Shown one piece after another: positions 26,901 to 64,000 of a stretch of DNA of 64,000 nucleotides. Made by a program: the position numbers and the translations under genes. Below the pieces are notes generated by a model that saw nothing but the letters and a program-made list of their open reading frames with translations, was not told the origin of the DNA and searched no databases. The number at the start of each line of letters is the position of its first letter. Position 1 is the first letter of the stretch. The stretch spans positions 682,001 through 746,000 of the forward strand of contig JACSVZ010000007.1 of the NCBI GenBank assembly GCA_014706295.1, in the 5' to 3' direction. The stretch is from Lycocorax pyrrhopterus obiensis (lineage: Eukaryota; Chordata; Aves; Passeriformes; Paradisaeidae).

Positions 26901-29063
26901 TCTCGTCGAAGCGGATGTGCACGGGGGGCTTGTGCACGTAGATGAAGCCCCTCTCCAGCGGGTACAGCAGCCCCGAGCTGGCCTTGTAGGAGCAGGTGAT
27001 GCACTGGGCTCCGGAGTGTCTGCGGGGCAAACTCCGCTGTCCGTCCACGGGGACAAACACCCTCCCCGTGCCCGGCCCCGGCAGCCAGGCCCTGCTCCCC
27101 GGCACGAATCACACACACAGAGCCCCTTCCCCTGGCCATGGGAATGAGGGGGGAAGAGAGGGGGACTGGCCCTGCAGCCGCTCACCCCTGGAAGTTTCCG
27201 GGCACGGTGATCTTGCGGTTCACCAGCGCCTTCATCACCCGGCTGACCATCTCGTAGAGGGACCCCGACATGTTCTTGGTGAGCCGCCCCTCGAAGCGCT
27301 TCTCCACTTCCTCCCTGCGTGGAGGGAGGGAGGGAGGGAGGGAGGGCAGAGATGAGAACGGGGTCTGGGGGGGTCAGCACCTCCCTCAGGATCCAGGAAG
27401 GGGTCTGGGAAGCGGCGTGGCATGGGGGGAACTCACTCGTTCATGTTGAGGGTCAGGGAGATGTCCTCGTCCTTGGAGAAGAGCAGGATCAGGAAGTGGT
27501 AGCGGGTCTGGCCTTGCTTTATCGGGGGGTCCAGGCTGATCTGGAAAGCGAGGGGGAGGTGAGGACACGAAAGCCCCCGAACCACCCCCACCGCCCTCCC
27601 GGGGGAGGGCCAAGCCACTCCCGCTCACCACGAAGAACATCTGGCGCTGGTCCTTGTGCGGGAGCAGGAAGAGGCGCAGCACGGTGGTGTAGGGGATCTT
27701 GTAGTCGAAGGTCTTGCCGTGCAGGTGCAGGAAGGTGGGGTAGATGCGGATGTCGTAGCGCCCGCGCGGCGTCAGGCACTGCAGCTCCCGGAAGATGCAG
27801 ATGGCGTCTCCGGTGGCCTGGATCACGTCCGCCTTGGACAGCACGTTCTGGGCGAAGGCCTGCGAGGGAAGCGGTCACCAAGGGTCCCTCGCTGCCACGG
27901 CCCCGCCCTCCGGCCGGCCCCACGCACCTCCACGGGGTCCACGCCGTCCTCCTGTGTGGGGGGCACGTAGAACCGGACCTCCATGAGCGAGACCTCGGCG
28001 TCGTCGTTCTGGTGGAACTCCAGCGTCACCTCGTTCTTGCCCGTGGTGCACTGGGACACGTTGCTGAGCGGGATCTCGAACACCGGCTGCTCCCCGATGT
28101 CGAAGGACAGCAGCTGCCCTGCGGGGACGTCACAGCCAGCTCGGAGCTGTGCCCCGCAAATCCCATCTCCAGCCGCAGCCTCGCTCCTCTCCCAAAATCC
28201 AGCAGTGCCTCTGCTCTCACCACTGCATTCCCACCCTCCAGAACCCCCAGGCTTTCTCCCTTCTGGCTGCCTGCCACCGGTGGGAACATCCCACCCCACA
28301 GCCTCAGGCTGCCGCTGGGACTCACCTCCAAACCTCACCGTGCCCCAGTTCCAGCCCTTCACACACAGATCCTTCTCCGCCAGCTCCAGGCAATAGTGGG
28401 CCTTGAAGAAATCTGAGAGCTTGTCGAATTCCTGGGTTGGGCGAGAGGGAGGGAACACCATCAGGAAACACCACGAGCCCCACGTGAGACACAGCCCCCG
28501 GGCACGGAGATGCAGGGGGCAGAGCTGTTCTGGGGCTCGCAGGGAGCACAGCTGGGACAGGGACAGGGCCAAGGCAGCGGGAGCAGGGACTCACCGACTC
28601 CCGGAACCCGTCATACTTGTAGACGTGGCCGTTCTTGGTGAGCAGCTTGAGGCCGTGCCCCAGCGCCACGCGCCGCCACACGCCCTCAGCCAGCTCCGAG
28701 GCCTGGATGTTGTCCACCTTCCCCGTCTTGCTGTTCTTGAAGATGACACCCTGCCGGCTCAGCCGCAGCCGCCCATCGTTCTGCGGGAGAGCCGGGCGTG
28801 AGGGGACTCGGTCCCCCGGAACCGTGGGGGAAGCACGGCCCCTTTGGGTGCAGCCCCCCAGGCACCCACACCACCGACCCACCACCGACCAGCCACAGCT
28901 TCACCGCCCACGCCCTCCTCGCCACACAGCATTCGCTCCCCCCCTCCACCCCCCAACACACTCCAACCCTGGAAGCGCCCCGGGGCCCTCCCCAGGTCCC
29001 CTCGCTCACCATGGACCCCTTCACCTCCTGGTAGATCTCGTTGAACTCCAGCGTGTCGGCCAT
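23951..29063 (-). CDS. SSRP1: SSRP1, HMG-box subunit of the FACT histone chaperone
   Basis: Nuclear partner of SPT16 in FACT; handles H2A-H2B and H3-H4 during transcription and replication. Sixteen coding exons (complement): 29010-29063, 28595-28780, 28326-28431, 27928-28118, 27629-27859, 27437-27540, 27186-27314, 26798-27019, 26643-26715, 26087-26225, 25951-25996, 25337-25460, 24900-25070, 24571-24653, 24265-24445, 23951-24019. They total 702 aa (human 709). N-terminal and middle PH-like domains (start [35 protein letters not shown]) are almost identical to mammals. An acidic stretch ([20 protein letters not shown]) follows. The HMG box spans [20 protein letters not shown] to about [11 protein letters not shown], then a Lys-rich and Ser/acidic tail ending SEDSASGSD. 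The start exon follows an acceptor near 29,078, implying a noncoding first exon. Confidence 0.98.
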
Positions 29064-37760: not shown

Positions 37761-37772
37761 GGTGAGCCCGGG

Positions 37773-37781
37773 ATGAGCTGA
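37773..37781 (+). promoter_or_regulatory. APLNR: Minimal upstream ORF (Met-Ser-stop) in APLNR leader
   Basis: GGGATGAGCTGAG encodes a two-codon reading frame ending 23 nt before the main start codon. If the transcript starts upstream of 37,773 it could slow initiation at the receptor start. The transcription start is not known from sequence. Confidence 0.4.
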
Positions 37782-37804
37782 GCCGAGCGGAGCCCAGCGC
37801 CGGG

Positions 37805-38917
37805 ATGGAGGCGGCCGACTCCTACGCCTACGGCTTCGACAACGACACGGACTGCGAGTACGCGGAGTGGGGCCCCTCGCTGGCCCTGCTGCCCACCATC
37901 TACCTGCTCGTCTTCCTGCTGGGCACCACCGGCAACGGGCTGGTCCTCTGGACCGTCTTCAAGGGCGGCCGCGACCGCCGGCGCTCGGCCGACACCTTCA
38001 TCGCCAACCTGGCCGTGGCCGACCTCACCTTCGTGGTCACCCTGCCCCTCTGGGCCGCCTACGCCTGGCTGGGCTACCACTGGCCCTTCGGCACGGCCGC
38101 CTGCAAGGTCAGCAGCTACCTGGTGTTCGTCAACATGTACGCCAGCGTCTTCTGCCTGACCGGCCTCAGCTTCGACCGCTACCTGGCCATCGTCCGGCCG
38201 CTGGCCACCGCCAAGCTGCGCTCGCGGGTCAGCGGGCTGGTGGCCACCGTGGCCCTGTGGCTGCTGGCGGCGCTGCTGGCCCTGCCCGCCCTGGTGCTGC
38301 GGCGGGCGGCCGCCCTCGACGGGGACACCAAGATCACCTGCTACATGGACTACGGGGACCTGGCGGCGCAGGGGACGGAGGGCGCCTGGGAGGTGGGGCT
38401 GGGGCTCTCCTCCACCGCGCTGGGCTTCGTGGCCCCCTTCGCCGTGATGCTGACCTGCTACTTCTTCATCGCCCGCACCGTGGCCACTCACTTCCGCCGG
38501 GAGCGGGCCGAGGGGCCCCGCAAGCGCAAGCGCCTGCTCACCATCATCACGGTGCTGGTGGCCGCCTTCGGGGGCTGCTGGCTGCCCTTCCACCTGGTCA
38601 AGACCCTCTACGTGCTGATGGACCTGGAGGTGCTGCCCTGGTCCTGCGCCCTCCACACCTTCCTCAACAACCTCCATCCCTACTGCACGGGCATCGCCTA
38701 CATCAACAGCTGCCTCAACCCCTTCCTCTACGCCTTCTTCGACCCCCGCTTCCGCCACGCCTGCGCCGCCCTCCTCTGCTGCCGGACCCCCGGCCCCGGC
38801 CCCGAGCGCTCCGCCAGCTACTCCTCGGGGCACAGCCACCCCCCCGGCGGCAAGGGGGGCCCCGGCCCGGGCGGCAAGCTGGACCCCGCCACCCAGGAGA
38901 CGCTTTTCCGCGCCTGA
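37805..38917 (+). CDS. APLNR: APLNR, apelin/Elabela receptor (class A GPCR)
   Basis: Single-exon G-protein-coupled receptor of 370 aa (human 380), acting at the plasma membrane in vascular and cardiac development. It shows seven hydrophobic segments, an N-terminal acidic tail with glycosylation site [16 protein letters not shown] in TM1, [16 protein letters not shown] in TM2, [11 protein letters not shown] after TM3 (DRY), the CYMDY second-loop motif, [10 protein letters not shown] around TM6 and [16 protein letters not shown] in TM7 (NPxxY). The C-terminal SASYSSGHS phosphorylation stretch and QETL end resemble mammalian APLNR. The start is chosen by alignment of the acidic N terminus. Codons are extremely GC-biased at third positions, like the flanking genes. 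Confidence 0.98.
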
Positions 38918-42795: not shown

Positions 42796-44055
42796 GACAA
42801 GAAGAAACGAAAGAGAAGGAAAAGCAAACATAAATATAAATATAAAAAGAGGAGAGTGAGGATGAGGCAGAGGAAGGAGCCGGTGGGATGCAGGTGGATG
42901 CTCCGTGCCCGTGTGCCTGGTCCGGGGGTGCAGGAGTTGTGGGGGGCGCAGGGGGTGTGGAGCATGGGGGAATTCTTGGACTCACTGGAAGGAAAATAAT
43001 AAAAACCCAGAGAAAATAGAGAAGGCAGAGGTCAAGTTCCCTTTCCCGGGGGCAGCGCTGGGGCTGGGGTGCAGCTGCAGCCCTTTTTGGGGTGGGCTGG
43101 GGTTACACCAAACCCCTCCCCCCACGCACTCAGCCTCCATGGGGGGCGGGGGAAGGGACAAAGCAGCCCCCGGGTGACCCCAGCCCCGAGCCCCAAGCCC
43201 CGGTCCCCACCTGACGTGCTCCCACGGTGACGGGGTGACACAGACGCCAGGGACGGGTGACACAGGCACTGGGGACGTGGCCATCCCGGCTGGACAGAGG
43301 GTCGTTGGCTTTCCGCTTTTCGCTTTTTTTTTTTTTCTTTTTTTGTCCTTTTCTTTAGAGCTCCTTCCACCTCCCAACCCTCCCCCAGGGTGGGCAATGC
43401 TGGTGCCCGGTTTGGCCCCGAAGAGGAGGGAGAAGTCGTCCCTGGGAGATGCAATCCCCGGAAGGTGCCGTCCTCGGGAGGTCCCATCCCCTGGAGATGT
43501 CACAGCCCGTCCCACCACCGGGCTCGGCGGTCCCGGCGCCGCCCCAGCGCATCCCAGCGTCACCAGCGAGGCGCAGGCATGCCCCGGAGCGGTGGTGCCG
43601 AGCTGGGTGCCAGCACCGCTTCCTGCCCCCCTGGACTTTTGGGGAGGCCGGAGAGTGCGGGCAGGATTTGGGGGGGCTTCAGCGGTGCTGCTTCGGGGCC
43701 GAAAGCGGGGATTTCCTCGGTGCCCCCAGGAGAGTGGCTGCGGTCCCCAAGGCACGCACAGCCTTGGGGGGGGTCTCTGTCTCTCCCAGGCGGAGGTGGG
43801 GGGGGTTCCCAGGGGATTCCCAAGTCGCTGCCTCAACCAGTCCCGGGCAGTGGGAACAGCACAGGAGGGGGTCCAAGCTCACGGTGGCGGGGGGCGCAAA
43901 AACTCCCCCGCTTTGGGGCAAAAGGAAGCGGGGCTGTCCCCTGGTGTCCCCGGCGCCTCGAGGGCCACCCCGGCGCGGGGGGCGGCGGGAGGGGACGCGG
44001 ACAAGGCACAGTCTGGTGTCCCCGCGGGGGCGGCCGGGCCGGGGCGGGGGTCTAT

Positions 44056-44056
<1 letters not shown>

Positions 44057-44085
<29 letters not shown>
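44057..44085. repeat. LRRC55: (GGC)n repeat just after the LRRC55 stop codon
   Basis: About ten GGC units on + (GCC in the transcript) begin three bases beyond the stop codon. They are in the 3' UTR, not coding. Confidence 0.85.
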
Positions 44086-44086
<1 letters not shown>

Positions 44087-44088
44087 CC

Positions 44089-45016
44089 CTAAACGTCCTC
44101 GTCCTCGCTGGCCTTGCTCCAGCGGTGGCAGCAGTTGGCCGTGATGCCCAGCAGGAAGTTGGTGGCCACCGAGGCGATGGAGACGACGAAGCCGACGAAG
44201 GCGATGAAGAGATAGTCGTCGAGGGTCAGCGTGAGGTGGCAGGCCTGGAAGCTCTCCTCCGTCAGCGACAGCAGCGGGGCCCCCGCCACCTCGGGGGGAG
44301 CCCAGCACTCCGCCTGCTGCGAATCTGCGGGACGCAGGGACGGCGTCAGCCCGGCCGCCGGCCCCCCCGGGCGGGACGGGGCTCGGGGGGTCCCGGCGGC
44401 ACCTACCCGAGGAGCAGCGCTGGATGCGCCCCCGCAGCCACTTGAGGAGGGGCTCCATGGCGCAGCCGCAGAGCCAGGGGTTGCCCCCCAGGCGCAGCCC
44501 CACGAGGCCGGGCAGCCCCTCCAGGGCGTCGAGGCTGAGGGCGGCCAGGCCGCCGTAGCTGAGGTCCAGCTCGCGCAGCTGGGCCAGGCCGCGGAAGGCC
44601 TGGGGGTGGACGCGGCGCAGCCCCGGGTTGTGGCTGAGGTCGAGGCGCAGCAGCGCGCTGGCCTCGCGGAACATGTCGGCGGGCACCAGGCTGAAGTTGT
44701 TGTAGCTGAGGTCCAGGTGCGCCAGGCGCCGGGCGCCGCGGAACAGCCCGGCCGGCAGCGCCGCCAGGGAGTTGTTGCGCAGGTCGAGGGCGCGCAGCTG
44801 CCCGTAGCAGCCCAGGTAGCCCGGCGGGATGCTGGCGATGCGGTTGTGGGCCAGGCTCAGGTTGCCGGTGTCCAGCGGCAGCTCGGGGGGCACGGAGAAG
44901 AGCCGCTGCCCGCTGCAGTCCACCGCCTGCCCGCGGCAGCTGCACAGCACCGGGCAGCCCGCGCCCGCCGCCGCCACGGCCGCCGCCGCCGCCACCAGCC
45001 AGGGGCCCAGCAGCAT
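44089..45016 (-). CDS. LRRC55: LRRC55, leucine-rich-repeat auxiliary gamma subunit of BK channels
   Basis: Type I membrane protein that shifts voltage activation of BK (KCNMA1) channels. Two coding exons (complement): 44407-45016 and 44089-44324; 281 aa. The order is a signal peptide ([20 protein letters not shown]), an LRRNT with CPVLCSC, about five or six LRRs ([48 protein letters not shown] and others), an LRRCT with NPWLCGC, one transmembrane helix ([20 protein letters not shown]) and a short acidic cytosolic tail SKASEDEDV. Length, a single TM and adjacency to APLNR fit LRRC55, not the GPI-anchored RTN4RL2. An acceptor at 45,211-45,212 indicates a 5' noncoding exon, perhaps using the CCA/GTGAGT donor near 45,707. 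Confidence 0.92.
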
Positions 45017-45216
45017 GGCCTCGTGGCCGCGGCCCTCACGGGGCGCCGGGGGCCATCCCGCCCGCCCGCTCGCTCACGCCGAGGGCTGCCGGCCGCCGGC
45101 CGCGGGGCCGGGCTCGCGGCGGTCACAGCGGCGTCCCCGGCATCCCGGCGGCATCCGGGGCGCAGCGCCGACCCCTCCGGGGGCACCGGCGTCGGGCCGT
45201 CACCAGCTGCCTGCGA

Positions 45217-48197: not shown

Positions 48198-51100
48198 TCA
48201 GCTCTGGAAGGTGCAGGAGGGGCCGCAGGAGGGGCCGGGCGGGGAGTGCCACACGGCCGAGCTCGTGCGCTTGAAGTAGCGGGGCTTGCTCTTGTAGAAG
48301 ATGTGCTCCAGCCTGGGGCTGGGGATGGCCCCGAACAGCGCATCCACGTCCACCGGGTGGTAGTACTGGTGCACGATGGCCTGCTGGAGCCGCGCCCCTG
48401 CAACGGGAGCAACAGGAACGCCACACCGATGGATGCAAGCCCCGCCTAAGCCCTTCCCTCCCCTCTGAGAACACACGAGCTGCGCAGGAGGGGTGGGACA
48501 TCTCCCAAAGCCACCGCAGCTCGCTGCTCCTCAGGATTTGGGGCTGCCCCCCCTTTGCTCCGAGAGGACTCTGGTTTCACCTCAGCCCAGGAGCGCTCGC
48601 AGGCAGCGGCGCTGATCGCCTCAGCACACCGGGCTGGGAGCTGCCAGCGCTTCCAGAGGCGCACACGCTCCTGGACTGCGCTTTGCGATGGCTCCAAGCG
48701 AGGCTGGAAAGCTCCAGGGCAGCAGGGAAAGGAAGCCAGCCCGGAGCTAGCACCTACCATCGGCCCAGGCAGGGATGGGCTTCCGAGGGTTGCTCTCGTC
48801 ATCGGTGGAGTCGTCGCTGTTCAGATCCAGCCCGTAGCTGTTCTCGTCGGCCGGGGGCGACCCTGGTCCCTGAGCACCCTTCAGGGACCCGAGGCAGGAT
48901 GTGGAGAGGGATTTCTAAAACCAGACAGAGCAGTGATGAGCAAAGGAAGCAGCACTTCCATGGCTGGGATGGCCCCCAGAGCCCCACAGTGCTCAAATCC
49001 TGAACCACCACAAAACCATCGCTGGGCTCTGTGCCTTGACACCCGCTCCTAAACACTCCCTCCCCGCCTCTTTTCTGTGGAAAAACCTAGGAAAGGCACA
49101 CCCTACACCCAAACCCTTCCACGTATTCTGCGGCAGGTCGGTTTTCCCCTCGCTGGAGCTCTGACACAGCCCCTGAGCAGCCCCCCAGCAGAGGCAGCGC
49201 TCCTTCCCGGCTCCGCGCAGCCTTTCCTGCCGCCCTGCCGGGGGAAGGCTCCGCAGCCGGCACAGCGCGGCTGCCCAGGGCTGCTCCCGCCGGGACGTCG
49301 CCTCAGGACCTGCTGCCCTCCTGTGGCCGCTTCCAGCATCTTCCGACCACTTGTTTTCCCACCGGATTCCCCGTGCCGAGCGCTGCGGTGGCTCCGAGCC
49401 GCGGCGGCCAAGTAGCCACAGCAGGCGAGGGCCCCCCGAGGGCTGTGCCGGGGCCAGGGCTCACCTTGACGGCTTTGCTCGGCCATGTCCCAGGGGCTGG
49501 TGGTTGGAGGGGTTTTTTCTGCTCTGCCAGCTGCTGCTGGCCGTCTGCCTCCTGCAAGACACGGGAACTCAGTCATTCCTCGCTCACACGGAACAGCCTC
49601 TGGAACAGAGCTGTGTTCTCGGCAGCTCTGGCAACATCCAGCCCTCAGTGCCCCCGCGGCTTCTCCTGCAGAAGCACCCCCAAATCCAAGACCCCCAGAT
49701 AAAGCCACTCCTGTGCCTGCTCAGGTCCAGCCCGGCTCTCTGGAGCCCACACTCACCCTCTCTGCTTGGAGCCAGACGTTAAGAGCTGGGAAAAAGGATT
49801 CTGGTGGCTCGAATCTTTTCTCTAGCCCAGGCCCAAGGGGCAGCTCGTTGGGACTCTCTTTCCCCTAATAAAGGGGGAAAAAAATCATTTCTCAAATTCC
49901 TTTTTGACCCGAACCACTTCTTCCCAGAGTTTCCCCTCCTGTGCTGCTCAGCTCTTGGAGTTAGTTCCATTTTCTCCTGCCTGGAAAAGCTCTGCCAGGC
50001 TCATTCTGGCCCAGCTGCTGGCAGCACAGGGAGGATTCGGACCTTAAATTAAATTCATGCAGCACAAAAGAGTCCAAGTACCAGGAACTGAGGGAAGGAG
50101 TGCAGCAGGAGCCCACAGAGGAGGAAGAATCGATCCTGAAGAGGAAGAACCATTTGGGGCATTGATTTTTCACTAACGAAGCAATGAATTTAAGAGTAGA
50201 GAGCGAAAGCAAATGTAACTGTGATATTCTGAGACAGAACCCTGACTTTAAGCACCAACATTCTTTGTGTGAGCGCATACGAAGTGACACAGAGCCACGG
50301 GGCACCTGAGGTTTGGTTTGGGGGTCACATCCTTTGGGCCTGGTGAGGAAATGTGGCAGGAAGACGTGAATAAAGCTCTAATTCCCATATTCATTTCAGG
50401 ATCAGTGAATGCTCTTTGGGGTGTTCTTCCAAATGCCATTTCATGGCTGCCCCCACATCGTGGTAGGGCTGAGGGCTCACCTGCCAGCCAGGGAACCCCA
50501 AGCCCTTGGCTTGTTCCTGCACAGAGCCTCCGTACAATAAGTCATTAGCGTTATTGTACTTGACCCTCTGAACAACATCCCAGCAGCACGGCACTTGGAA
50601 AACACCCGACCCTGAACCCAGCCTGTGTGCTGCAGAGAGGCTGATCCCAGGACACTCCAACCCCACCTCGGTGGCCTGGCCAGCCAACGCCGCTGGCTCC
50701 AGCTGTGCTTGGGGGGGCTTCTCCTTCCCTCGCTGCTTGGGATCCCTGGGGAAAAGAGGGAATTTAGAGAGGGAAGCATGTCCATCTGTCCCTCACCCTC
50801 TTACAGCCTCCTGCTCCTGCCCCCCAACCTCCAGGCAGCCCCAGAGCCCAGTTCCAACACCACATTTACATCCACTGCTTCCCCATGCCCACGGCCAACT
50901 CCCTGCTCCCGGACAGGCACCAGCTCACACCTCTCCTTCGCTTGTCCCAGCTGCTGCTGCTCCAGAAGGTTCTTCAGTTCCAAGACTTTCTTCCCTCTTT
51001 CCTTCACTTCATCCTCTCTTCTTTTCTGCAGTGGTTCTTGCTGCTCGTTTTCCTCCTGAAGCAAGAGGAAAACCCTGTAAGCCTCCAGCAGCCGGGACTC

Positions 51101-54100
51101 GTCTCCCTTCTGTCCCAACCCAACCTCAGCTGCCTGGACAGAGATCTGGCAGCCCGGACCCCAAAATCCCCGCAGAAGCAGGCAGTGACCTGTCCCTGTC
51201 CCACCAGCCACACCAACACAGCAGCTCCCTGCTATCCCTGTCCTTTTCCACGTGCAGGAGGGCCCTGAGTTGCTCTTACCCCTCTCGGTGCTTTCTGCTT
51301 CCGTGCCTCCACTTCCCCGTGTTTCTTGGACGTTTTCCTCTTGCTCCGCTCCTCTGCCACCTTCTCTTCCCGCACCTGCACCTGAGAAAGCCTCACCCGT
51401 GGGCTCCACTGCTCCAAGGACACACCTCACACAGCCGTGGAGGCAGGTCTGGAGCTCGGGATATCCCAGGTCCTAAGGAGGACGCAGCACCCAGCAGTGG
51501 GAGCGCTTTTGTCCACTCAGGGTTTGGGAAGGGCCGAAAGGAGCAGGACTCCTTGTTTTCCAAGGCTGACCCTTTCCAAAGGTCTCTTCAGTCCAGCCCA
51601 AAATGAGCACCCAGAGACTGCTCAGGCTCTGGGCCCTCAGGCACAGCTCCCTCAGCCCTTCACAGCCATAACACAGCAGCAGCACTGGCACGTGGCCACC
51701 AGCCCAGCCTGCCCCCCGAAAAAGGGCCAGGCCAGGCTCTGAAACCCAAACCTGACCCAAATGCACCCCCAGCTGAGTCACACTCTAGTCTGAGCACGTG
51801 GGCCAGGTGAGGCTGTCACCTGCAGGGCTGTGCCCAGGGCAGGCAGGGGCTGCCACATTCCCTGAACGCAGAGCGGCGTGAACAGGGCCTGTCCCAAAAG
51901 GACTGCGCAGAGGGATGGGGAACAAAAGCCTCCCCTTGTCAGAAGGGATTCTGGCGTGCACGGACCTTGCCAGTGCCCTGCTCACACCTCCTGGTCTCAC
52001 AGCTCCGGGAGAGGCCCAAAGCCCACTCAGCCTTCTCACCTTCTCATCACTCTGCAGGATCTTCTGCTCCATCCGCTTCTTCTTCTTTTCCTCCATCTGT
52101 TCCGCGCGCTCCCGAGCCTGCAGGGCCTTCCTCAGGCGCTCTTCCCTCTTCCTGGGCAGCGCGTGGGCAAGAGGGGCCCGTTAGCCCTGCCTGCTCCCAG
52201 AGGGCTCATTCCAAGCGGGAGGCACGTGGCAAGTCTGCGCTGACCACGGAAAGAGCGGGGGGAAAGGGGCCCAACTCACTGCTTCATTTCTGCCTGACGC
52301 CGTCTCTTCTCCTCCTCCACTTTGTTCTTCCTCTGTTCCTCAGCCTCCTGCTTCTTCCGGAGGTTCTCCAGTCTCTGCCTCTCCTTCTCCTGAAGGGAGA
52401 AGGGTTTGGACTGTACCAGGTGCTGGGGGCTGTGCCTCCCCTCAGGCAGCCTGGTACACACAGTCACTGCTGGAGCCATTCACCTGGGCACCGGGATGGG
52501 GAGTGAGCAGGAGGGGAGACAACACATACTTGGCAACAGGGATGATCCAATGCAAGCAGAGGTACAGGAGGGAAAAGCCTCAATCCTTCAGCTGCAGAGA
52601 ATATATTTAGAAAAGAACAGCACACCCCTGCTGTAGGTGACCACCTGTCCCGGGAGCCAGGAGAACGGTGGAGAGGGAGCACAGGGCAGCCTGGCTCAGA
52701 GGCCAGAAGCTCCCAGCAGGGTGCCCAGTCCCAGCAGAACACACCTGCACAGAGATCCTGTCACCTCACCACTGATGTGGCCAGAGGGCTGACGGGCATT
52801 GGCGTGAGGGGAGAGCGTGGTCAGTGTGTCCAGCCCCACGGATAAGGTGTCATACTTACAACAAAGTCTCCCTGAGGAGAAAGGACACAAAAAACACGAT
52901 TGAAGGTTTGGAAGAAGCACCAGAACTCCCCTTCCCAGCACACACAGCCTGTTCTCCTCCCCGCCCTTGGACACAACCCACCTTCAGGTTGGGCCGGGTG
53001 GGAGTGTTGCATTTGATGAAGTCCTTGATGCCACCCCCTTGTCCCTGCAGGAAGTTCTTCAGTGGCCTGACAGCCTGAGGAGAGAGAGAGAGGGAGGGAG
53101 GGAGCTCAGGGCCTGCCTGGGACAGGGGGCACAGGGCTGTGGCACCACTCACCTTGCTGGCCGGAGAGGGGGACGACGGAGCCTGGTTCGCCAAGGCCTT
53201 GTGCTTCTCATCCAAGGGGGAAAGGGCCCGGCCGCCCGGCTGCTGCCCGTGCCACAGGACACCCAGGGCTTGCTTGCAGCCTCTCATCCTGGTGGCATTA
53301 GCAGGAGGGACATGAAGTGGCTGTCACACTCCCCAGAGGGATTTACTGGCTGTTTTACACTTCCCCCAAAACCTCCCCAGCAACGCGCAGTGAGGACACA
53401 CATCAGGTGTTCCGGGAGTCAGGTCAGGTATTCCAGACACTCACACAGACAAAAACAACCAGGTCAGTCACTCGCTCCCCGACCAGCCCCTCAGGAGCCC
53501 TTGGGGTCACCTCCCAGCTCTGAGCTAACTGTGCTGGGGCACCTCTGCCGGTCTGTGCAGGGCCTCGGGTGCTCCTCCCCATGCCAGACTCAGTCCCAGA
53601 CCCAAACAAGGCTCCAAAAGTCACAAGGGACTTCCAGGAGACAGGATCCGGCCAAAGGAGATTTCAGAGCTACTGGAAGCTGGGAGGGGAAGGCAGGGAA
53701 ACAACCCCCCCACGGCCCTTTTTAACACAAATGACTTAAAATGCTAAACCCTGAGTCCCTCTAGACCCTGGCTCATCCCTGCTCCTTGCAGCGTCTCCTA
53801 CCACATGCGGGAGGGATTCTCCTGGGACTTGGCACAGCGGGGCTGTTCCTGGCTCTTCTGGGGTTCACTGCCGGGATTTACGTGGCTTCCTGTGGAGAAA
53901 TCTGCAGTCAGTGCCACATGAGAGGCATCCAGCTCCCTCCAGGGACTCTTCCCTCCACTCCAGCTCCAGCTGCTTGTCAGATCCTGCAGCTCCCACAGGG
54001 AACAGAAACCCCACCCAACTCCTCCTTCTTGCTCAGAGGCACAGAAAATAATCAGGACCTCTAAATCTTCACGTAACGCAACCCCAGAGGGAAAGGACCT

Positions 54101-57100
54101 GACATTCCGTGGAAGACTCCAGCTCCAGGAGCTCCTTCCCAAATGTCCCCACTCACTCGTTGAAGCTGGACAGGGCAGTGTCTGCCCCACGGCTTGGACA
54201 CATTTACCTGTCCTTGCCCACCTAACTGATGTCACCTCTTCAGGAGGCACAAACTTTACCTGGAAAGCTTCCCCTTGAGTGGTCAGAACTGGTTCTGTTT
54301 CAACACAAATCCCGTATTTCCCAAGAACGCCCCCCCGAGCCCTAGGTCTGTGTGTGCTGAGGGCTGCATGCAGGGAAAGCACGAGCACCTGGAAGTTACC
54401 TGCAGCATTCCCTGCCTGCTGCTCCAGAGGGGACAGGTGCCGTGCAGGAGGGCTGGCGGCTTGGGGACTTGTGCTTGGAACGAGGACATCTCCAGGAGCC
54501 TGCAGGGAAAGGGGACAAGCATTCCCTCAGCACAGCTGCTCCCAAGAACAAGGCTACCAGGGCCCTGCTGCCCTGGAAAAGCCAGCTGCTTGCTCGGATA
54601 GGGTGGGTTTCCCCTCCCATGCGCTGGCTCATTTTGGGACACCGGCCACATCCCTGCATCCAGCGACAACCTCAGCAAAGGTGCTGACTGAGCAAGAAGG
54701 TGTCCACACAGCCTGAGCGTTGTTCCTTGGAACTCACCTTTTCCCTCGGGGAATTTGGTGCCAGCTCAGGCCTGTAAAGGGGAAAAAAAAAGCTACTTTA
54801 ATAATTCGAACTCTCTCTGAAGGCGAGTTACGGGTGATGGAGGCAGCATTTGGGACCCCAGGGGAGGTGCAGGTTCCTAAGCACATCCAGAGGCTGTTCC
54901 AGCCAGGCACACCAAGGCTGGGCTGTAAATTCCTCTGAGGGGCTCAACGCCCCATAACCAGCTTCGGCCCCAGTAGCAGGTAAGGAGGGAGCTCCGGCAG
55001 CCCTGTGCTGTCCCTTCCTTTCCTGTCCCCTTTCCAGCCAGAGCAGACCTGACTGACCACCAGCATCCCGGCATTCCGGGGCCAGCGGCAGCTGGGAGTT
55101 CCAGGAACCCCAGGACACACCACCGCCCACCCCAGTGAAGGGCTTCACTTCACTGTGCCTGAGCAGCACAACGTGAAGTCTCATCCAGCCCCAGGGGACA
55201 GCAACACCTGGGCGGTCCCTGATAAAATCTGTGACAGAAGAGCCACCTGGAGAGTGTCCTCACAGGGAATTCTGGGATCCCTTCCCACCTGCCTCCCGTG
55301 GCAGCCTCACCTTGTGCCGCTGGTCGCATCTTCTTCCACAAAAGCCTCCAAGGAGCTCTGACCTGGAGAGGAAAGCCTAAGTGGGGCTGGGGATTTCACT
55401 CCCAGGCTCCCAACAGCCACAGGGTGCACATGGAGGAGCTCAGGCTTCCTCCCAGGAACACGGATTGCTCAGCTTTCCCCACCAGCACCACACCTCCCTC
55501 GAGTGCCACCGAATCTGGAGTGGGCTGGGAAGGCAGAGCACCGAGGCAGCAGCTCTGCTGCCTGCAGCCTGCTCCAGCTGCCTGTGTCACAGCCAGCACT
55601 CCCAGGCCATTGGCTGCAGCTCCTGCCTCCCTGCATGCTGGGGTGCGGGGATCCGGGGGGTTTGGGCTGATTCCAGGCTCCTTCCACCCCCCCATCACAC
55701 CCCTTCGCTCCAAGTGTTATAACAAATGCCTGGATACGGCGTGACTCAAGGCTGACAAAGCTGAATTCCAGAGGCCTCCATGCTCCGCCACAGCCCGCTC
55801 GCCTGCAGCAGCAATGGCTTTGGAAAGCCCAAACAGCCAAACCCTGTCAGGAGCAGCAGGAATGGAGGATACAAGGGATTGGGAGCTACCAGGAATAGCC
55901 CGGGCTCCTGACCCCTGTTCCTCTGGTGACACAGCTAGTTTGAGTCTCTTCTATCCTCCCCCAAGAAGCATTTGAGCTCCTCTGCCCATTTCAGCCTCAT
56001 TTCGGGGCCGCACTTTCAGCCCTATTGATTTTTTTGGAGAGCTGGCAGATGCCATAAATTAAAGCCCTTCCCCAGGGAATGCAGCAGTCTCTCCCAGTCC
56101 AAAGGCACACGTGGCTGGAACCAGCCTGGCCACGCTCCCCCTTCCACCACCGCGCTTTCTGCCCACTCCCAGCCTGCACACCCCGACTCCACCCGCACCC
56201 CAGCACAGCCCTGGCCTGAAGCCGCGCCCCAGGAGCCCACAAGGACAAGGAGACTCGGGGGAGCCGGAGCCGGGGATGAGCCGCTCCGCACCCGCCTGGA
56301 AGCGGTGCAGGGACTCACAGCTCACTCTGCTGGAGGCCGAGGAGGACTCTCGCGCCGCTGCCTTCCTGGCCATGGCCCTGCCGATGGATCTCCGGATCAT
56401 GTTCTCCCTCCTGCTGGCCAGGGAGCACTTTGCCGCCAGGGAAGCCCTGTGGCTCTTGCGGGGGGCACCCACCCCGCTCCGGCGGCGCGTCCTGGATTTC
56501 TCTGTCGCGCTTTTACCGGGGGAATCCTGGAAGAGCAGTGTCTCGAGGCCTTGGGGAGCTCCATCTCCCGGGAGCGCAGCAGGATCGCCATTCCGAGAGG
56601 CCTTGGGAGTGGAGGTGCTGGCTCTCCTGGGGTCCTGCTCCCCATCCCTTCCTGGCTGTTCAGCCGGGATCCCAGAGACCTCCCGCAGCTCGGCCGCTGC
56701 ATCCCCCTCAGGCAGCTGCTCCCCCAAAACTGCTGGAGGGGCTGCACCACCCCCAGCAGCGCCCTGGGGACGCTCCTGGCAATCCGGATCTGCCGTGGGA
56801 ACACGTGCTTCCACAGGCTGCTTCCCGGGCAGAGCCGGGAGCCGGGGCGCGGTGCCAGCCTGAGATCCCGGAGCACGGCCGGGCACGGACACATCCTGCC
56901 CCTCACGGCCGGGGCTGCGGGACTGCTCCTGGCGCAGGCACCGCTGGGAATTCAGACTGGAAGACAGCAGCTTGACACCGCTCCTCCTTCGGGATAACCT
57001 TGAAGGAGAAGAATTTTGGAGGAAGCGATGAAGGAGTCGTCTGCTCCCAAATAAATTTTAGAGGGAAATGCAGACAGTGTTAAAGGGAAACTGCTGCTGG

Positions 57101-58466
57101 CTTCTCCACTGCACCGCTCCCCCTCACAGCCCATCCTATCCCTGGGGAGAGGCACGTGGACCAGCCCATGCTGGGTACCCAAAGTCAGGTGTGGGAAAGG
57201 TGTATTTAGCCCTGCGCCAAGAGCTGGGTTCACCCCCCACCCTGGGAGCAGCGCCCTGGGGCAGAGGACAGCACCCGCAGAGGGACACGCGGTGTGTCAC
57301 CTCCCCGCTGACAGGCCCGGCTGCCTCAGCACAGCTTCCCAAACCGAGTCTGAGCGGGGGAAAACACAAACAGGAGTTCGCTGGGCTGCTCCCCTGCAGA
57401 AAGCGTGACCTGAGCACCCAGAGCAGGGCCCGGAGCTCTCCCCGCCCCGCTCCGAAGCGCTGCTGCTCCCGCCCTCCCTCGCACACACACAAACCTCCCA
57501 CGCTCCCGCTATTCCTGCTGCTCTCCCCACCCTCCATGTCTGCTTCCTGACAGTCTCCCAGCTCTAACTCGTCCTCCTGTGGGCTTTCCACCACGGTTAG
57601 CACGATTTTAGTGCCCCAACACACTAACGGATCAGGTTTGGGCAGCTTTAAAAGTGCGGTGGGTTCTAAGCAAGTCACTTGGAATTTCCACTTCAGCCCC
57701 TCGAGGAACCCTTGGAGCCCCCCCGCCTGCCAACTCGGACGTGGTGCTGGGAACACACCCCTTTCCCAAGTTTTCCAGGCACTGACACAGAGACAGGGGG
57801 TGAACACCAAGAGCAGCAACCTCACGCCAAAAGCTAAACCCGATGAGACAAAACCCAAATCTAAACAGACAAGAAAATAGAGTGTTTATTATTCTTTAAC
57901 TATAACCAGCAAAAAAAAAAAAAAAGTGAAGGAAAGCAGCCAACTTTATCCCAAACCCTCACCAGAATCCAAGCAGTGCCCATGTGCCCCTTTGATAACT
58001 CAGGGAATGCAGGCACTGTTTTGTTCCATCCAAACTTCATGAGGTACAGTCAGAGCAAGCTGACCCACTCACCTCCTCCTGCTCAGCTCCTTGTTTTCGT
58101 CCCTCATCCAGGAGGACTGCCTTTTCCTGGGCTTCCTCCTCTGTGATGGCGTTTTGGGCAAGAGCATGGGCTCATCCCTGAAGCTGCTGTGAGGCAGAAG
58201 AGGCAGAGCACAGATTGCTTCCCCCACTGCCCACGCCAACCCTCCCAAAACAAGGGAAGGAAGGGGCCCAAACCCACCCGCGCCCAGCTGGGAGCTCAGG
58301 TGGGCACAGAAGGGTCCCCTCAGGGTGGTCCCCACCTCTTGAGCATCCTCATGCCCTGCTCCTCCACCTCCCGCAGCCAGGCCAGGTGCTTGTGCTGGGC
58401 ATCGCAGAGGAAGCGGGACAGCCTCTGCCGGCACACTTCCAGCAGCTGCTGGGGACCCTCCGCCAT
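48198..58466 (-). CDS. INCENP: INCENP paralogue (complete copy), chromosomal passenger complex scaffold
   Basis: Inner centromere protein binds survivin/borealin through its N terminus and activates Aurora B through its IN-box. Exons (complement): 58336-58466, 58073-58186, 56319-56998, 55311-55362, 54738-54771, 54400-54499, 54208-54294, 53802-53889, 53153-53288, 52982-53074, 52860-52871, 52280-52389, 52040-52151, 51280-51381, 50931-51055, 50667-50745, (50481-50567 optional), 49465-49551, 48758-48914, 48198-48397. All phases agree; 832 or 861 aa (human 918). N terminus: [20 protein letters not shown], then [10 protein letters not shown]. Coiled coil: [21 protein letters not shown] terminus: [28 protein letters not shown] and [14 protein letters not shown] with the Aurora TSS site. 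The helix-rich middle is far shorter than in mammals. Exons at 54,208-54,499 are the least certain. Confidence 0.93.
50481..50567 (-). other. INCENP: Candidate optional 87-nt INCENP exon
   Basis: Between TTGTTCAG and GTGAGC the complement is open for exactly 29 codons in phase 0 ([14 protein letters not shown] to GFPGWQ). The flanking coding exons also meet in phase 0 without it, so it could be included or skipped. No similarity to mammalian INCENP was recognised. Confidence 0.4.
52860..52871 (-). other. INCENP: 12-nt INCENP microexon
   Basis: CCTCAG/GGAGACTTTGTT/GTAAGT encodes Gly-Asp-Phe-Val. It joins ...TRPNLK to [10 protein letters not shown] and reproduces the human junction [17 protein letters not shown]. 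The position and in-frame length make it a real coding microexon. Confidence 0.8.
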
Positions 58467-58469
58467 CGC

Positions 58470-59094
58470 CGCGCCTGGCACACAGAGGGGGAGGACAAGG
58501 CTGGTGGGCAGCCAGGTCGCTCCTCAGCGTGGGAAAGAGGGACGCAGGCAGCGGGGTGCTCCCGGGCACGGGGGGAATGAGAAGACAGGCTCCGGTATAG
58601 GTCCTGGGGGACCCACCTCTACGTCCCAGGGGTCCCTCCAGAGCACTCGCTCGCCGCCCAAGCAGACCTGCTGCCGCTCCTGCTGCTGCTCCTGCTGCTG
58701 CCGCCGCCTCGCCCGCTCACCACACCCTCACAGCACTGCCCCTCCCCTCCCGTCCCACCCCGAAGTTATCCCCGGCCTCCGCCAATCACAGCGCGCATCT
58801 CCCAATCTCTGGCCTCTTATTGGTCATCCTGCCCGTCCGTCACCCCGGCTATTAAAGAGAGCGGCCTATGGGCCCGCCTCCTCAAGCCCCGCCTTCCGAG
58901 CCGAGTCCTCCAGGAGCATAGAGACGGGCAAGCAGAGCGGCGCCGAGTGCGAGCAGATGGGAAGGGCGGGCCGTGTGGGGCGGCGGGAGGTGATTGGCTG
59001 TTGAGGGGGCGGGCGCCGGTGATTGGCTGTCGTGGGGGGGCGAGACCGTGTTTGAACGGCGTGCCGCGCGCGCGCGGCAGTTGGCGCTGAGGCG
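58470..59094. promoter_or_regulatory. INCENP: Bidirectional promoter between the two INCENP copies
   Basis: Start codons are 628 bp apart and divergent. The start exon of the - copy begins at a TGTGTGCCAG acceptor near 58,474, with a noncoding exon ending at a GTAGAG/GTGGGT donor near 58,617. CCAAT boxes occur at 58782-58786 and 58802-58806 (+), and as ATTGG at 58819-58823, 58993-58997 and 59022-59026. The last two and a CHR-type TTTGAA (59051-59056) are spaced 29 bp apart, just before the + copy start. CCAAT plus CHR is the known signature of G2/M genes. Confidence 0.65.
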
Positions 59095-62000
59095 ATGGCC
59101 GCGAAGGTGGCCGCGGTGGTGATGGGGCCTGCGGCGGCCGCGGCGCGTTCGCTGGAGCTGCCCGCAGAGTGCGACCGGCGTCTGGCCCAGTTCCTGCGGC
59201 ACGTGGACGAGACCGATATGGTGTGGCTGGATGAGATCTATGAGGAGGCGGTCAGGATGTTTGTCAGGTACGCGCATCCCGCTCCCCGCTGGGCCCCGGC
59301 CCGTACCGGCCGCGCTCCGCGCTGATCCCGTCTTGGTCTCCCCTTTCTCTCTAGCAACTACAGCGAGGAGCTCGAGCTGATGCCCAAGACGCCGTCGCAG
59401 AAGAAACGGCAGCGGAGGAAGCGGCTGTCGGCCTTGCAGGAAGAAGAGCAGGAGCCCGGCAGGAAGCGGTGAGGGGCGGCGAGAGCGGGGATCGGGGAGC
59501 CCCTTTCGGGACGGGCCGCGGAAAGGGGGAGCGCAGAGGGCGTTCTCGGGGCCTGGAGAAGGGAGGGAGCCCGTGGGAGGCTGAACAGACCTGCTGCCAA
59601 GGGTTCAGGGGAGCAGTCCCCTCCACGGAGCATGTCCTGGCGATCCTCTCCTTTGTCCAGTGGGAGCTCCCCTTCCTTCGTCCCGCGCGTCCCCCTGGTG
59701 TTAAAGGTCCGGTCAGACCCTGCGTCTGGGGCACTCTCGGCCGAAAAACGTTGGATTTTGATTCTCACGAGAAGCGTTTTTATTTGTTGTCTGGTTCTAT
59801 GTCCCCGTGTCTCTATTATCTTTCTGCTTCGAAGTCATTTAAATGTAATTTATTTAATAATTTAATTACTGTCTGCGTTAGCTGCTTTGTGCAGCTCTGT
59901 GTCTCCTGGGCCCATCCCAGGTGTTTTGGCTCCGTTCCCGTGTGTGCACGGAAGGAGTCGGGGCTGTTCCCAACTCCTGTTCCCATCTAACACACTGTTC
60001 CGTGGTCAGACTCTCCAGGAGGAGGAACAGCAGCCTCAAACTGGTGCCTTCTGTGCGAGCTTCTCAGCGACTCCAGAACAAAGAAAACCTGGAACTCAGC
60101 AGGGCCGAGGCCAAAGAAAACTCTCCACCACAGCGTGTGACACGATCCCGGGCTGCAGCCTCTGCCAGAAGCTCCAAGGTGGTTCCTGAGACCCCTCCTG
60201 CCCGACAGGCAGCAGGGAAGGATAAGGATCCCTGGGTGGAAGCTGACCACATTGGTGCCACAGTGCCTCTCCAGAGGAGCGGAGCGGAGCCGGCAGAGCT
60301 GCTCCCCACGGGCTCAGGGAATGGCTCTCCCAAGGAACATGGTGCTCCCAGATCGCCGCTGGTGCCCACGGCCCCTGAGCTGGTGGTGCCCCGTACCCCC
60401 GAGGCCAGCCAGGCTGTGCCCGAGCTGCAGACAGCGAAGGCAGCCAACGTCACCGTCATCCTGAGCACAGAGCCCGGGCTGGAGGAGGGCGACGGCTCCC
60501 CGCGGGAACACAGCCGGGCTGAGGAGCCCTCCCAGCCCCTGAGGGACAGCCCGGGGACTCCGACTGGCTCCCGGCTCAGCCGCCGCTCCGTGCGCCGGAG
60601 CTTGATGGGGAAAGCCTCCCTGAGCCGCAGAACCTCCCTGGCAGAGAAATACTCCCTGGCCAGCAAGAGGGAGAGCATGATCCGGACATCCATCGCCAGG
60701 GCGGCGGGCAAGAAGAAGGCGGCTCGGAAGAGATCCGTGTCCTCCAGCTCCGTGGATGGTGAGTTTGGGTGTCATGGGGGGGTTCTGCTGCTTTCTGCTG
60801 CTGAGGAAAGCAAAGTGCTGGGGCTGGCTATCCAGTGTGGGGGTAGCAGCTGAGCTTCCCGGGCTAGACAGGCTACAATCCGTCATGGAAGTTCTCCCTG
60901 GCTTTCTGGAGCCCCCTGTGAGCAGAGAAACACAGGTAACTGAATTCAGCCGTGTAAACCACCTGGGAGATCAGCCTCAGTGTCTCCATTTCAATTTAGC
61001 TTTAACCATTGCTGATTTGTTGGGAGAAGTCGTTAATCCTGGAATCCCAGGATGGTTTGGGCTGGAAGGACCAGTGCCACCCTCTGCCTTGGGCAGGGAC
61101 ACCTTCCACTGTCCCAGGTTGTTCCAGGCCCCATCCAGCCTGGCCTTGGACACTTCCAGGGATGGGGCAGCCACAGCTTCTCTGGTCAGCTGATCTTCCT
61201 GGTTTCCGTGGGGACAGCTGGCAAAGCTGAGAAGGGTTTGGGGATCCAAAAAGGCTGATGGATTCTCCCAAAGCCCTGCCTGTTTCCTGTAAGGTGAAAT
61301 TTCCATCAATTGCCTCCTCCTTAGCAGGATCTGGCTGCTGAGTTTAGAGTTTGAGAAGGGAATTTCGAGGCTGAGCTTTGTAAATTAAAAGTCTCCCACA
61401 CTTTTACAGTTGGTGGCAGAGTCCAGATTTAGGGAAGGACAGTCTGATCTAAACTGCCCAAATTATTAAGCAAACAAGCTGGAGAGGGACTCTTCGTCAG
61501 GACCTGGAGTGACAGGACAAGGGGAAATGGGTTCAAACTGAAAAAGGGGAAATTTAGATGGGACATATGGAAGGAATTCTTCCCTTTGAAGGAGGCGAGG
61601 TCCTGGCATGGGTCGATAGAGCTGTGGCTGCCCCACCCCTGGAAGTGTCCAAGGCCAGGTTGGACAGCGCTTGGAGCAACCTGGGCTAGTGCAAGGTGTC
61701 CCTGTTCAAGGCAGGGGGTGGGACTGGATGATCTTTAAGGTCCCTTCCCACCCCATCCAGTCTGTGATTGTTTGGTGCTGTGGTTATTCATGGCAGGTTC
61801 CGGCTGTGCCGGAGCTTCCGAGCTCACCGCAGCAGAGCCAACGGGAATGCTGGCTTGGGAAGCAGCACTCCCACTGTAAATAAGGCTGGCTCTAACTGCT
61901 GTTGATGTCCAGTCAGGGCCCTGCAGATAAGCCTGAGGCCAAGCCCCGCCCCATTAGTGCCAGCTCGAGGAATATTGCCCTGAACTCATCCATAATTGAA

Positions 62001-64000
62001 AACTGCTTTCCGGAGCCGGAGCTGCCGTCTGCGTTCCTGCAGTGCCACCTGCGTGTGCTCCCCAGGGCAGGACGAGCCCCCCTGCAGTGTCTGGAGGTCC
62101 TTGTCCCACCAGATCCTTGGCCTGCACCCCAGCCTCACAGCTCAGGTGTGTTCTTTCCTCTCCCACAGCCTCCAGCTCCATAAGTGTGCCAGAGGATGAG
62201 GAAACCGTTGTCAAAACTGGGTGAGAATGCTTTCAGTTATTTATTTATCCTCACTACCCTGCTTGCAGGACCTTTTCACTGCCATTCTTGGTGTGAAATC
62301 CAAGCAGCTTCTCAGTTTCCTCAGTGTTGTTAAGCACAGCCCCTTTTGTCTTCCTTTTTTTTTCCTAGGCCTCCTCCTGGATCCTCCACCCCCTCCAAGC
62401 TGGTAAGACTTGGGCAGGGATTAAAAGCATTTGTGTCTGGGTGGATTTGGGAGGAAAACGTGTGGAATATATACTTTAGTGGGAAACTTGGGAGCTCTGG
62501 CTGTGGATTGCCAGACCTTGTAACCTGTCCCATAGCAGTGAGTGAGGAAGGCACAGAGCATCTGGCTCAGAGGTGCATGAGCCCGTCCACAGCCTCTGTG
62601 GTTCTGGTACTCAGACTAGGGAAAGTCTTCATCACAACATTCCAGAACCAGCAAAATCAAAACCAGCAAAGTTTTCTTTGGGAAATGAGCACGTGTGACC
62701 CATGGCTTTGGGTGCAGGTGGCGGTGTTGTGTCAGAAGGGTGTTACAGTCTCGGATGCTTTCCAAGATTCTCTGACTAAAACATGGACTTTCCTCTGTCA
62801 TTTTCCTAAATTTGTTGAAATTGTTGCACACCACCCTGAGCCTGACCTCGGGGTTGAGTCCCGCTTGGCTCTTCCTTCTTAACCTCTTGTTAGAGATCAT
62901 TGTGTGAAGATTCAGTCCCCAATCTCTACAGGTAAAAAAACCTTATAGTTCAGGGGAGTTTGGTTCAGCTGGTGTCACGGTTGGCACACTGTATTTTTAA
63001 AGCTTCTTTTGACCTTTTGGCCAGTCCTGCGTGTAATTCAGCACTTGTTAGTTTGGACACACACAGAAATTTGTGAATATTATTCAGGTCAGCACCTTTC
63101 CCTCCACAATCCTCGCTGAGGAAGTAATCCTGGTATCATGTCAGTATTTTGTCCAGAATAAATTTCAATGAGCATAGCCTGAATTAATGGAGCAGAGCAG
63201 TGACCTGAAGCGCTTGTGAAGACAAGGAGAGTGCAGAAACTCGAGAAAAGTCAGTTTTTCTGGGCCCTGCAGAAGGAATTTGGGCGTATGAATTCTCCAT
63301 CAGTCCCTTTTGTTCTCTTCCCAACGCAGCACTGTGAAGTGCTGACCAGGAGGTAATGCTGGTGCTGCTAGCAGAGAGCAATTCCAGAACCACAGCCCAT
63401 TGTCCCAGCGGAGCATGCCCCAGCCTAAGTGCAGAGGCAGCGAGCAGCGCTGGGTATCCCATAACAAACAGATAAATCACGGAGATGAGCCATTTGCCTG
63501 CTGTCTCCAGGCTCCCCGTTCGTCGCTGCTCAGGGAAATGGGCGCGCTGGCTCTGGCCAGAGCTCCGGCAGCACAGATTTACAGCTTGGAAGGTTCCTGG
63601 CCTTAATAGTTGATGAGCTGGTTGAGTTCAAGCAGCGCAGATGCTCGTGTTAATGTCCGTGCCTCTCCTGATGATGCAGCATCCAGGGCTGTGCCAAGAG
63701 AGGGTTTGGCATTCCCTGGTAATGCCGCTGACCGTTCCCGTGTCAGAACCACCCCACGATCGGAACCAGGAACGGGCCGTTTCCGTGTGCGATTGTCCTG
63801 AAACCCCTCTGCTTTTCCCACAGGATTTCCAAAGCCCTCGGATGTCCCTTCGCTCCCATACAGTCAGCAAACACGGGCAGCCCCAGGAGCCGAACAGCGG
63901 TGGTAATTCCAGAGGGTTTTGGGGCAGTGCTTTGGGAAGTTACCATTTGGGAGGCTGGCTGGGAAGCTGGAAAGATTGACTGGTTAATTTGAGAGCTCAG
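59095..64000 (+). CDS. INCENP: INCENP paralogue (5' part, runs off the window)
   Basis: Second inner centromere protein gene, divergent from the complete copy. Exons seen: 59095-59267, 59355-59468, 60010-60758, 62169-62220, 62369-62402 and probably 63824-63899 (or to 63902 with the next donor); about 400 codons. The N terminus ECDRRLAQFLRHVDETDMVW then DEIYEEAVRMF and LELMPKTPSQKK are closer to mammalian INCENP than the - copy. The large exon carries LSRRRNSSLK, HP1-type hydrophobic VTVIL, and SLAEKYSLASKRESMIRTSI. Exon lengths 114, 52 and 34 nt are identical to those of the - copy, proving duplication of the exon structure. The coiled coil and IN-box must lie to the right of 64,000. Exon 6 is the least certain. 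Confidence 0.92.
61035..61190 (-). mobile_element. CR1 LINE fragment in INCENP (+) intron 3
   Basis: The complement reads GCCCCATCCCTGGAAGTGTC, then CAAGGCCAGGCTGGATGGGG and ends ...AAACCATCCTGGGATTCC, the conserved 3' part of avian CR1. It is antisense to the gene. Confidence 0.9.
61470..61775 (+). mobile_element. CR1 LINE 3' fragment in INCENP (+) intron 3
   Basis: From AAGCTGGAGAGGGACTCTTC through GACAAGGGGAAATGGGTTCA, GGAAGTGTCCAAGGCCAGGT and GATGATCTTTAAGGTCCC to a degenerate TCTGTGATTG end, this is about 300 bp of the CR1 3' region in plus orientation. Its last 150 bp are the inverse of the CR1 copy 430 bp upstream. Confidence 0.92.

Follow-up and report, generated by a model that had tools for sequence, protein, structure and literature searches.

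Locus and Gene Models

Two genes for INCENP, the passenger-complex scaffold that binds and activates the Aurora kinase in chromosome segregation, lie head to head in a stretch of 64,000 nucleotides from the bird Lycocorax pyrrhopterus obiensis (assembly GCA_014706295.1, contig JACSVZ010000007.1, positions 682,001 to 746,000), which is referred to here as the window. The minus-strand copy is called M and the plus-strand copy P, and coordinates are positions in the window. Vertebrate INCENP is generally regarded as one essential gene; to our knowledge mammals have one, the human sequence being the mammalian one compared here. An earlier reading of this DNA from its letters alone (the sequence-only reading) had described M as a complete gene and P as the 5' half of another, with starts 628 bp apart, with coding exons 2, 4 and 5 of equal length (114, 52 and 34 nt) and equal phase, and with both copies open and carrying the N-terminal box and the TPSQ motif.

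The gene models agree with this description, save for the extent of P. M comprises 19 coding exons and 839 amino acids, with 18 GT-AG introns and a full IN-box at its end. P proved to be complete, with 17 exons, GT-AG introns and 871 amino acids; the last 11 of these exons are found past the end of the window, within the following 8 kb of that contig, up to contig position 753788. Neither frame contains an internal stop. The gap between the two ATG codons is exactly 628 bp (58467-59094), exons 1 to 6 measure 131/173, 114/114, 680/749, 52/52, 34/34 and 100/79 nt in M/P, and the five introns that the copies share within the window all agree in phase. The N-terminal box was matched in M, and the threonine of TPSQ (T59) is kept in both copies. 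The parts of the two genes are as follows.

58466..48198, minus strand: M, complete divergent INCENP paralogue (gene model and solved-structure match)
58466-58336, 58186-58073, 56998-56319, 55362-55311, 54771-54738, 54499-54400, minus strand: M exons 1-6
53889-53802, 53288-53153, 53074-52982, 52871-52860, 52389-52280, 52151-52040, 51381-51280, minus strand: M exons 7-13
51055-50931, 50745-50667, 49864-49757, 49551-49465, 48914-48758, 48397-48198, minus strand: M exons 14-19
58073..58466, minus strand: CEN box (survivin/borealin-binding helix) and PKTPSQ of M, coding exons 1-2 (sequence match)
51280..52871, minus strand: M exons 10-13, part of the single alpha-helix without proline or glycine, amino acids 478-575
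49465..51055, minus strand: M exons 14-17, with numerous prolines and glycines in the part aligned to the helix C half
48758..48914, minus strand: M exon 18, STD motif (NSDDSTDDE) and initial part of the IN-box (PF03941)
48198..48397, minus strand: M exon 19, remainder of the IN-box with KRTSS, and stop codon (PF03941)
59095..64000, plus strand: P, chicken-like INCENP, part inside the window (gene model and solved-structure match)
59095-59267, 59355-59468, 60010-60758, 62169-62220, 62369-62402, 63824-63902, plus strand: P exons 1-6
59095..59468, plus strand: CEN box and PKTPSQ of P, coding exons 1-2 (sequence match)

The best solved-structure match of both proteins is a full-length INCENP chain, which we take to be the human one (E 1.8e-87 for M; E 8.9e-30 for the first 400 residues of P). 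Residues 2-77 of M, the CEN box, match PDB 8rup_M (E 1.7e-18) and are predicted to bind survivin and borealin, and the IN-box of M matches PDB 4af3_D (E 4.2e-23), with STD at 754 and TSS at 818; profile PF03941 recognizes both halves of this IN-box (E 1.6e-7 and 1.2e-5). P has the CEN box, the long helix and the IN-box with STD and TSS. The count of INCENP loci rests on a search of the whole 1.104-Gb assembly with the IN-box profile PF03941, which gave two matches at E<=0.001 (nine candidates scored), which fall in the exons of M and P that carry the STD motif. Plasmid records were probed as well, without a match.

Divergence of the Two Copies

M, P and human INCENP were aligned in three MAFFT modes, two of which gave identical counts and the third close ones. 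The copies are identical at 315 of 772 aligned residues (41%), and identity to human is 39% for M and 50% for P. All seven DNA matches between the copies overlap coding exons, and their introns are unalignable. The suggestion that the duplication is old, with low identity outside conserved motifs, is supported.

Divergence differs from module to module. Over the 82 columns of the CEN box, identity is 0.35 between M and P, 0.49 between M and human and 0.50 between P and human, so that both copies resemble human more than they resemble each other; residues common to one pair only number 4 (M-P), 15 (M-human) and 16 (P-human), the M-P share of 4/35 lying below the expected one third (p 0.003). 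The C half of the helix is at 0.22 between M and P and 0.60 between P and human. Over the 118 columns of the IN-box, the values are 0.64 (M-P), 0.53 (M-human) and 0.62 (P-human), and 18 of the 38 residues common to one pair only are common to M and P (p 0.05). M had also been called the faster-evolving copy. This holds for the whole protein, where 169 residues are common only to P and human and 75 only to M and human (72 and 39, respectively, in the four modules judged well aligned), but not for the CEN box. The overall imbalance is consistent with more rapid change in M or, should the duplication predate the split of birds and mammals, with an outgroup position of M.

Conserved Motifs and the Helix

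Thirteen of the 16 human positions checked are the same in M and P, the other three being those of the HP1 motif. Both copies keep F22, W33, L34, T59, S72, the three STD residues, W845, F881 and the TSS triplet, among which F22, L34, S72, W845 and F881 are presumably contact or phosphorylation sites.

The charged region of human INCENP (527-783, 257 residues) has two prolines or glycines and that of P (494-740, 247 residues) three, one of them inside the helix at 535, whereas that of M (472-647, 176 residues) has 13, the only part without them being 478-575, about 98 residues. M keeps the N-terminal part of the helix and lacks the long single alpha-helix (SAH) of about 213 residues in chicken and 257 in human, which is not a defining feature of INCENP across eukaryotes. 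Overlooked helix exons were sought by a three-frame scan of 52860-48914 on the minus strand for 18-residue stretches with at least 66% E/K/R/Q/D; none fell outside the modelled exons, and the two additional off-frame stretches both lie inside exon 11.

The helix region also marks P as probably the usual INCENP, corresponding to the class I/II gene of chicken, and M as a divergent paralogue. This comparison draws on published features of chicken INCENP (P53352; a single gene, studied in DT40 cells), in which class II carries a 38-residue insert and the helix starts at residue 503. At the place of the class II insert P has an exon of 114 nt (phase 0/0), exactly 38 codons, which by size and phase is a candidate for the alternatively spliced insert; the helix of P starts (EKERQ) likewise at residue 503. 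M differs from chicken in lacking a 114-nt exon in the helix region and in having EKERQ at residue 481 and an interrupted C half. Without its 114-nt exon P would have 833 amino acids, and a C-terminal fragment of chicken class I is given as 737-839. Since the layout of M differs from that of chicken, the identity of its length, 839, to that of chicken class I is read as a probable coincidence. One pattern was used to look in P for a four-residue micro-exon like exon 10 of M, and none was found; such an exon would move the P residue numbers by four. An exon like the human 'KALNV' exon was looked for in P by eye only.

The IN-box Tract

Synonymous divergence (dS) between M and P, estimated by NG86 and computable for 18 of the 19 M exons, is above 1 or saturated in 14 of these 18 but 0.27 in exon 19, which holds the following tract.

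48350-48237, minus strand: 114-nt tract matching the last exon of P at all but two positions, a probable product of gene conversion (M-P DNA comparison)

Sequence beside the tract gives no M-P alignment. Identical residues use the same codon at 35 of 36 positions in the tract and at 153 of 272 elsewhere (Fisher p 2e-7, the tract limits having been set after inspection), and a run of 33 identical same-codon residues was reached in none of 20000 shuffles, the longest being 30, on the assumption of independent columns. A near-identical tract amid high synonymous divergence in most exons suggests recent gene conversion, which appears to be the best explanation. Constraint on the DNA or the protein would be the alternative: the tract encodes Aurora-binding residues, and the STD-motif exon, also part of the IN-box, has 86% DNA identity over 87 bp (48837-48751, minus strand, against P exon 16). 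However, other conserved parts do not hold their codons (same codon at 31/50 positions in the N half of the SAH and 18/29 in the CEN box), and neither the unalignable flanks nor the length of the codon run fits it, so that we consider constraint rather improbable.

Exon 3 holds a basic 'SLASKRESMIR' block (60622-60748, plus strand; 56455-56329, minus strand) with 76% DNA identity between the copies, in which M and P have residues absent in human; it may represent earlier conversion or an unnamed motif. As a second conversion tract, this part of exon 3 (M amino acids 264-300) is not claimed, its dS being 0.46 but its same-codon count 16/22.

The Gap Between the Genes

58467..59094, no strand assigned: gap between the two ATG codons, 628 bp, with five CCAAT boxes (58782, 58802, 58819, 58993, 59022)
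58993..59056, plus strand: CCAAT, 29 bp, CCAAT, 29 bp, cell-cycle genes homology region (CHR; TTTGAA, 59051-59056), on the P side

Five CCAAT boxes were reached in 1 of 2000 shuffles of the gap. The CHR is canonical and lies 44 bp upstream of the ATG of P, and under a preset rule the CCAAT-CCAAT-CHR layout has a single instance in the window. Ten published CHR variants were sought in the gap and in 58187-58335, and none was found besides that at 59051. These variants are taken from PMC4705690, which has INCENP among 210 potential targets. On its CCAAT-CCAAT-CHR element, where CHR/DREAM binding is putative, P looks like a G2/M gene. The M side has three CCAAT boxes and no CHR, and because of the latter M may be timed otherwise, unless the promoter of P is shared. 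The gap also carries an asymmetric CpG island (58500-59250) that rises from the start of M toward that of P; the observed/expected ratio is 0.52 in the interval 58500-58749, close to the M start, and reaches 1.2 where P starts.

Candidate Partners in the Genome

A BIR family search of the assembly gave 15 matches at E<=1, 12 of them over the cut-off (26 candidates). Two loci appear to be of the survivin type with a single BIR, three exons of each having been read.

C1104:17739500-17746000, minus strand: survivin-type locus (best solved structure survivin, E 1.3e-52)
C1110:10366000-10373000, plus strand: survivin-type locus (best solved structure survivin, E 5.1e-36)

The lone stop in the C1110 BIR match sits in a presumed splice donor. 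The borealin C-terminal family has one match (three candidates), with surroundings that by eye resemble borealin 1. As to the kinase, birds are said in PMC8470780 to have lost the AURKB/C gene, in conflict with work on DT40 cells, which refers to Aurora B. That M and P pair with different survivins is speculation.

Function of M and Alternative Explanations

Selection on M is supported by its open codons, its intact introns, a poly(A) signal some 93 bases beyond the stop and similarity to P in exons alone; in neutral simulations, none of 500 runs at 0.2 and none of 500 at 0.5 substitutions per site stayed free of stops. With moderate confidence, we read the locus as encoding two passenger-complex scaffolds that have an Aurora-binding end in common but different targeting boxes and leashes. 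Two INCENP genes pointing apart would have arisen by an old tandem duplication in inverted orientation. P would have stayed the standard, cell-cycle-driven INCENP, and M would have become a second scaffold. It would have retained the binding of survivin and borealin and would share with P the Aurora kinase that it activates, but its short leash would favour substrates at the inner centromere over those at the outer kinetochore; lacking a CHR on its side, it may also be differently timed. Gene conversion would have kept the kinase-binding tract alike while the targeting box and the helix diverged. It is possible, though unlikely, that the two form parallel passenger complexes, one with P on a long leash and one with M on a short leash, with diverged boxes perhaps serving the two survivin-type proteins and the Aurora end converted.

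Several observations weigh against reading M as a second working scaffold. The evidence for both copies is genome sequence, and the comparison covers three sequences, two from one bird genome and one from human. The CEN boxes differ strongly (0.35), and partner binding by M could therefore be altered. The HP1 motif (PxVxI/L/V) is absent from M (839 amino acids) and from residues 1-400 of P, and the aligned human positions differ; PMC11116813 places a possible HP1 motif in chicken INCENP, so its absence from P counts as a difference. CCAAT boxes on the M side leave room for a shared promoter, and synonymous saturation is not uniform, dS being 0.73 in M exon 1, 0.74 in exon 13 and 0.58 in exon 18.

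Other accounts of M differ in how they fit these data. An INCENP specific to the germline or to meiosis, which the sequence-only reading had proposed, would be compatible with the two-scaffold reading and would suit the missing CHR and the faster overall change; there is precedent in Oikopleura INCENP paralogues and in Plasmodium INCENP-B, reported in PMC12946202 to be specific to meiotic stages. The CpG ratio at the start of M, set against that at P, does not suggest an island unmethylated in the germline, and we hold this role to be a minority possibility. Decay of M, or a move from the passenger complex to another role, would account for the changed helix and for the diverged CEN box and disordered region; since 839 open codons, 18 intact introns, the poly(A) signal, exon-only similarity to P and an intact STD, IN-box and TSS speak against it, it seems distinctly improbable. 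An assembly artefact or allelic copy is practically out of the question: the two lie on one 64.6-Mb contig, and their divergence, with 41% protein identity and DNA matches confined to exons, excludes an assembly duplicate.

Neighboring Genes and Repeats

37766-38914, plus strand: apelin receptor (PDB match)
24570-27624, minus strand: SSRP1 (Pfam)
43679-45073, minus strand: leucine-rich repeat (LRR) gene (Pfam)

The LRR gene we take to be LRRC55, and the neighborhood of apelin receptor, SSRP1 and LRR gene presumably corresponds to a block like human 11q12. By eye, the 10 kb upstream of the window appear to hold TIMM10-like and RTN4RL2-like genes, and VPS51-like and BET1L-like genes appear downstream of the end of P. 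Repeat ends seen by eye in intron 3 of P, at about 61040-61190 and 61620-61760, are presumably CR1-like.

Comparison With Known Systems

No second INCENP in a bird or other vertebrate was found among the matches listed, in titles and the starts of abstracts, although automatic annotations may list M as INCENP-like, and no literature on INCENP in passerines was found. Relative to human INCENP, the module order is the same in M and P. According to PMC10733467, Oikopleura dioica, a chordate of a different lineage, also has two INCENP genes in one genome (INCENPa and others). Duplicated scaffolds are likewise described for apicomplexans (INCENP-A/-B and INCENP-1/-2; PMC12946202), which have neither survivin nor borealin, whereas M and P both keep the box that binds them. 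If the proposed reading is true, the locus would clearly exemplify how gene conversion can preserve one part of a duplicated scaffold while its address and leash diverge.

The closest parallel to M is engineered. DT40 cells carrying INCENP with the N half of the SAH (503-597) grew comparably to wild type (PMC4571873); in HeLa cells, such an INCENP is reported to have rescued DSN1 phosphorylation less well. The mutant helix has 95 residues, against about 98 uninterrupted in M, and lacks the C half, whereas M preserves the region's length and has helix-breaking residues in it. Because its uninterrupted helix is near the length of this mutant, M looks like a natural short-leash INCENP, a behavior suggested by analogy. 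DT40 cells need their one INCENP gene, so that if chicken has M, M does not cover for P there. If the proposed reading is true, M would be nature's counterpart to the laboratory experiment on leash length, through which helix length and the reach of Aurora for its substrates could be studied in an animal.

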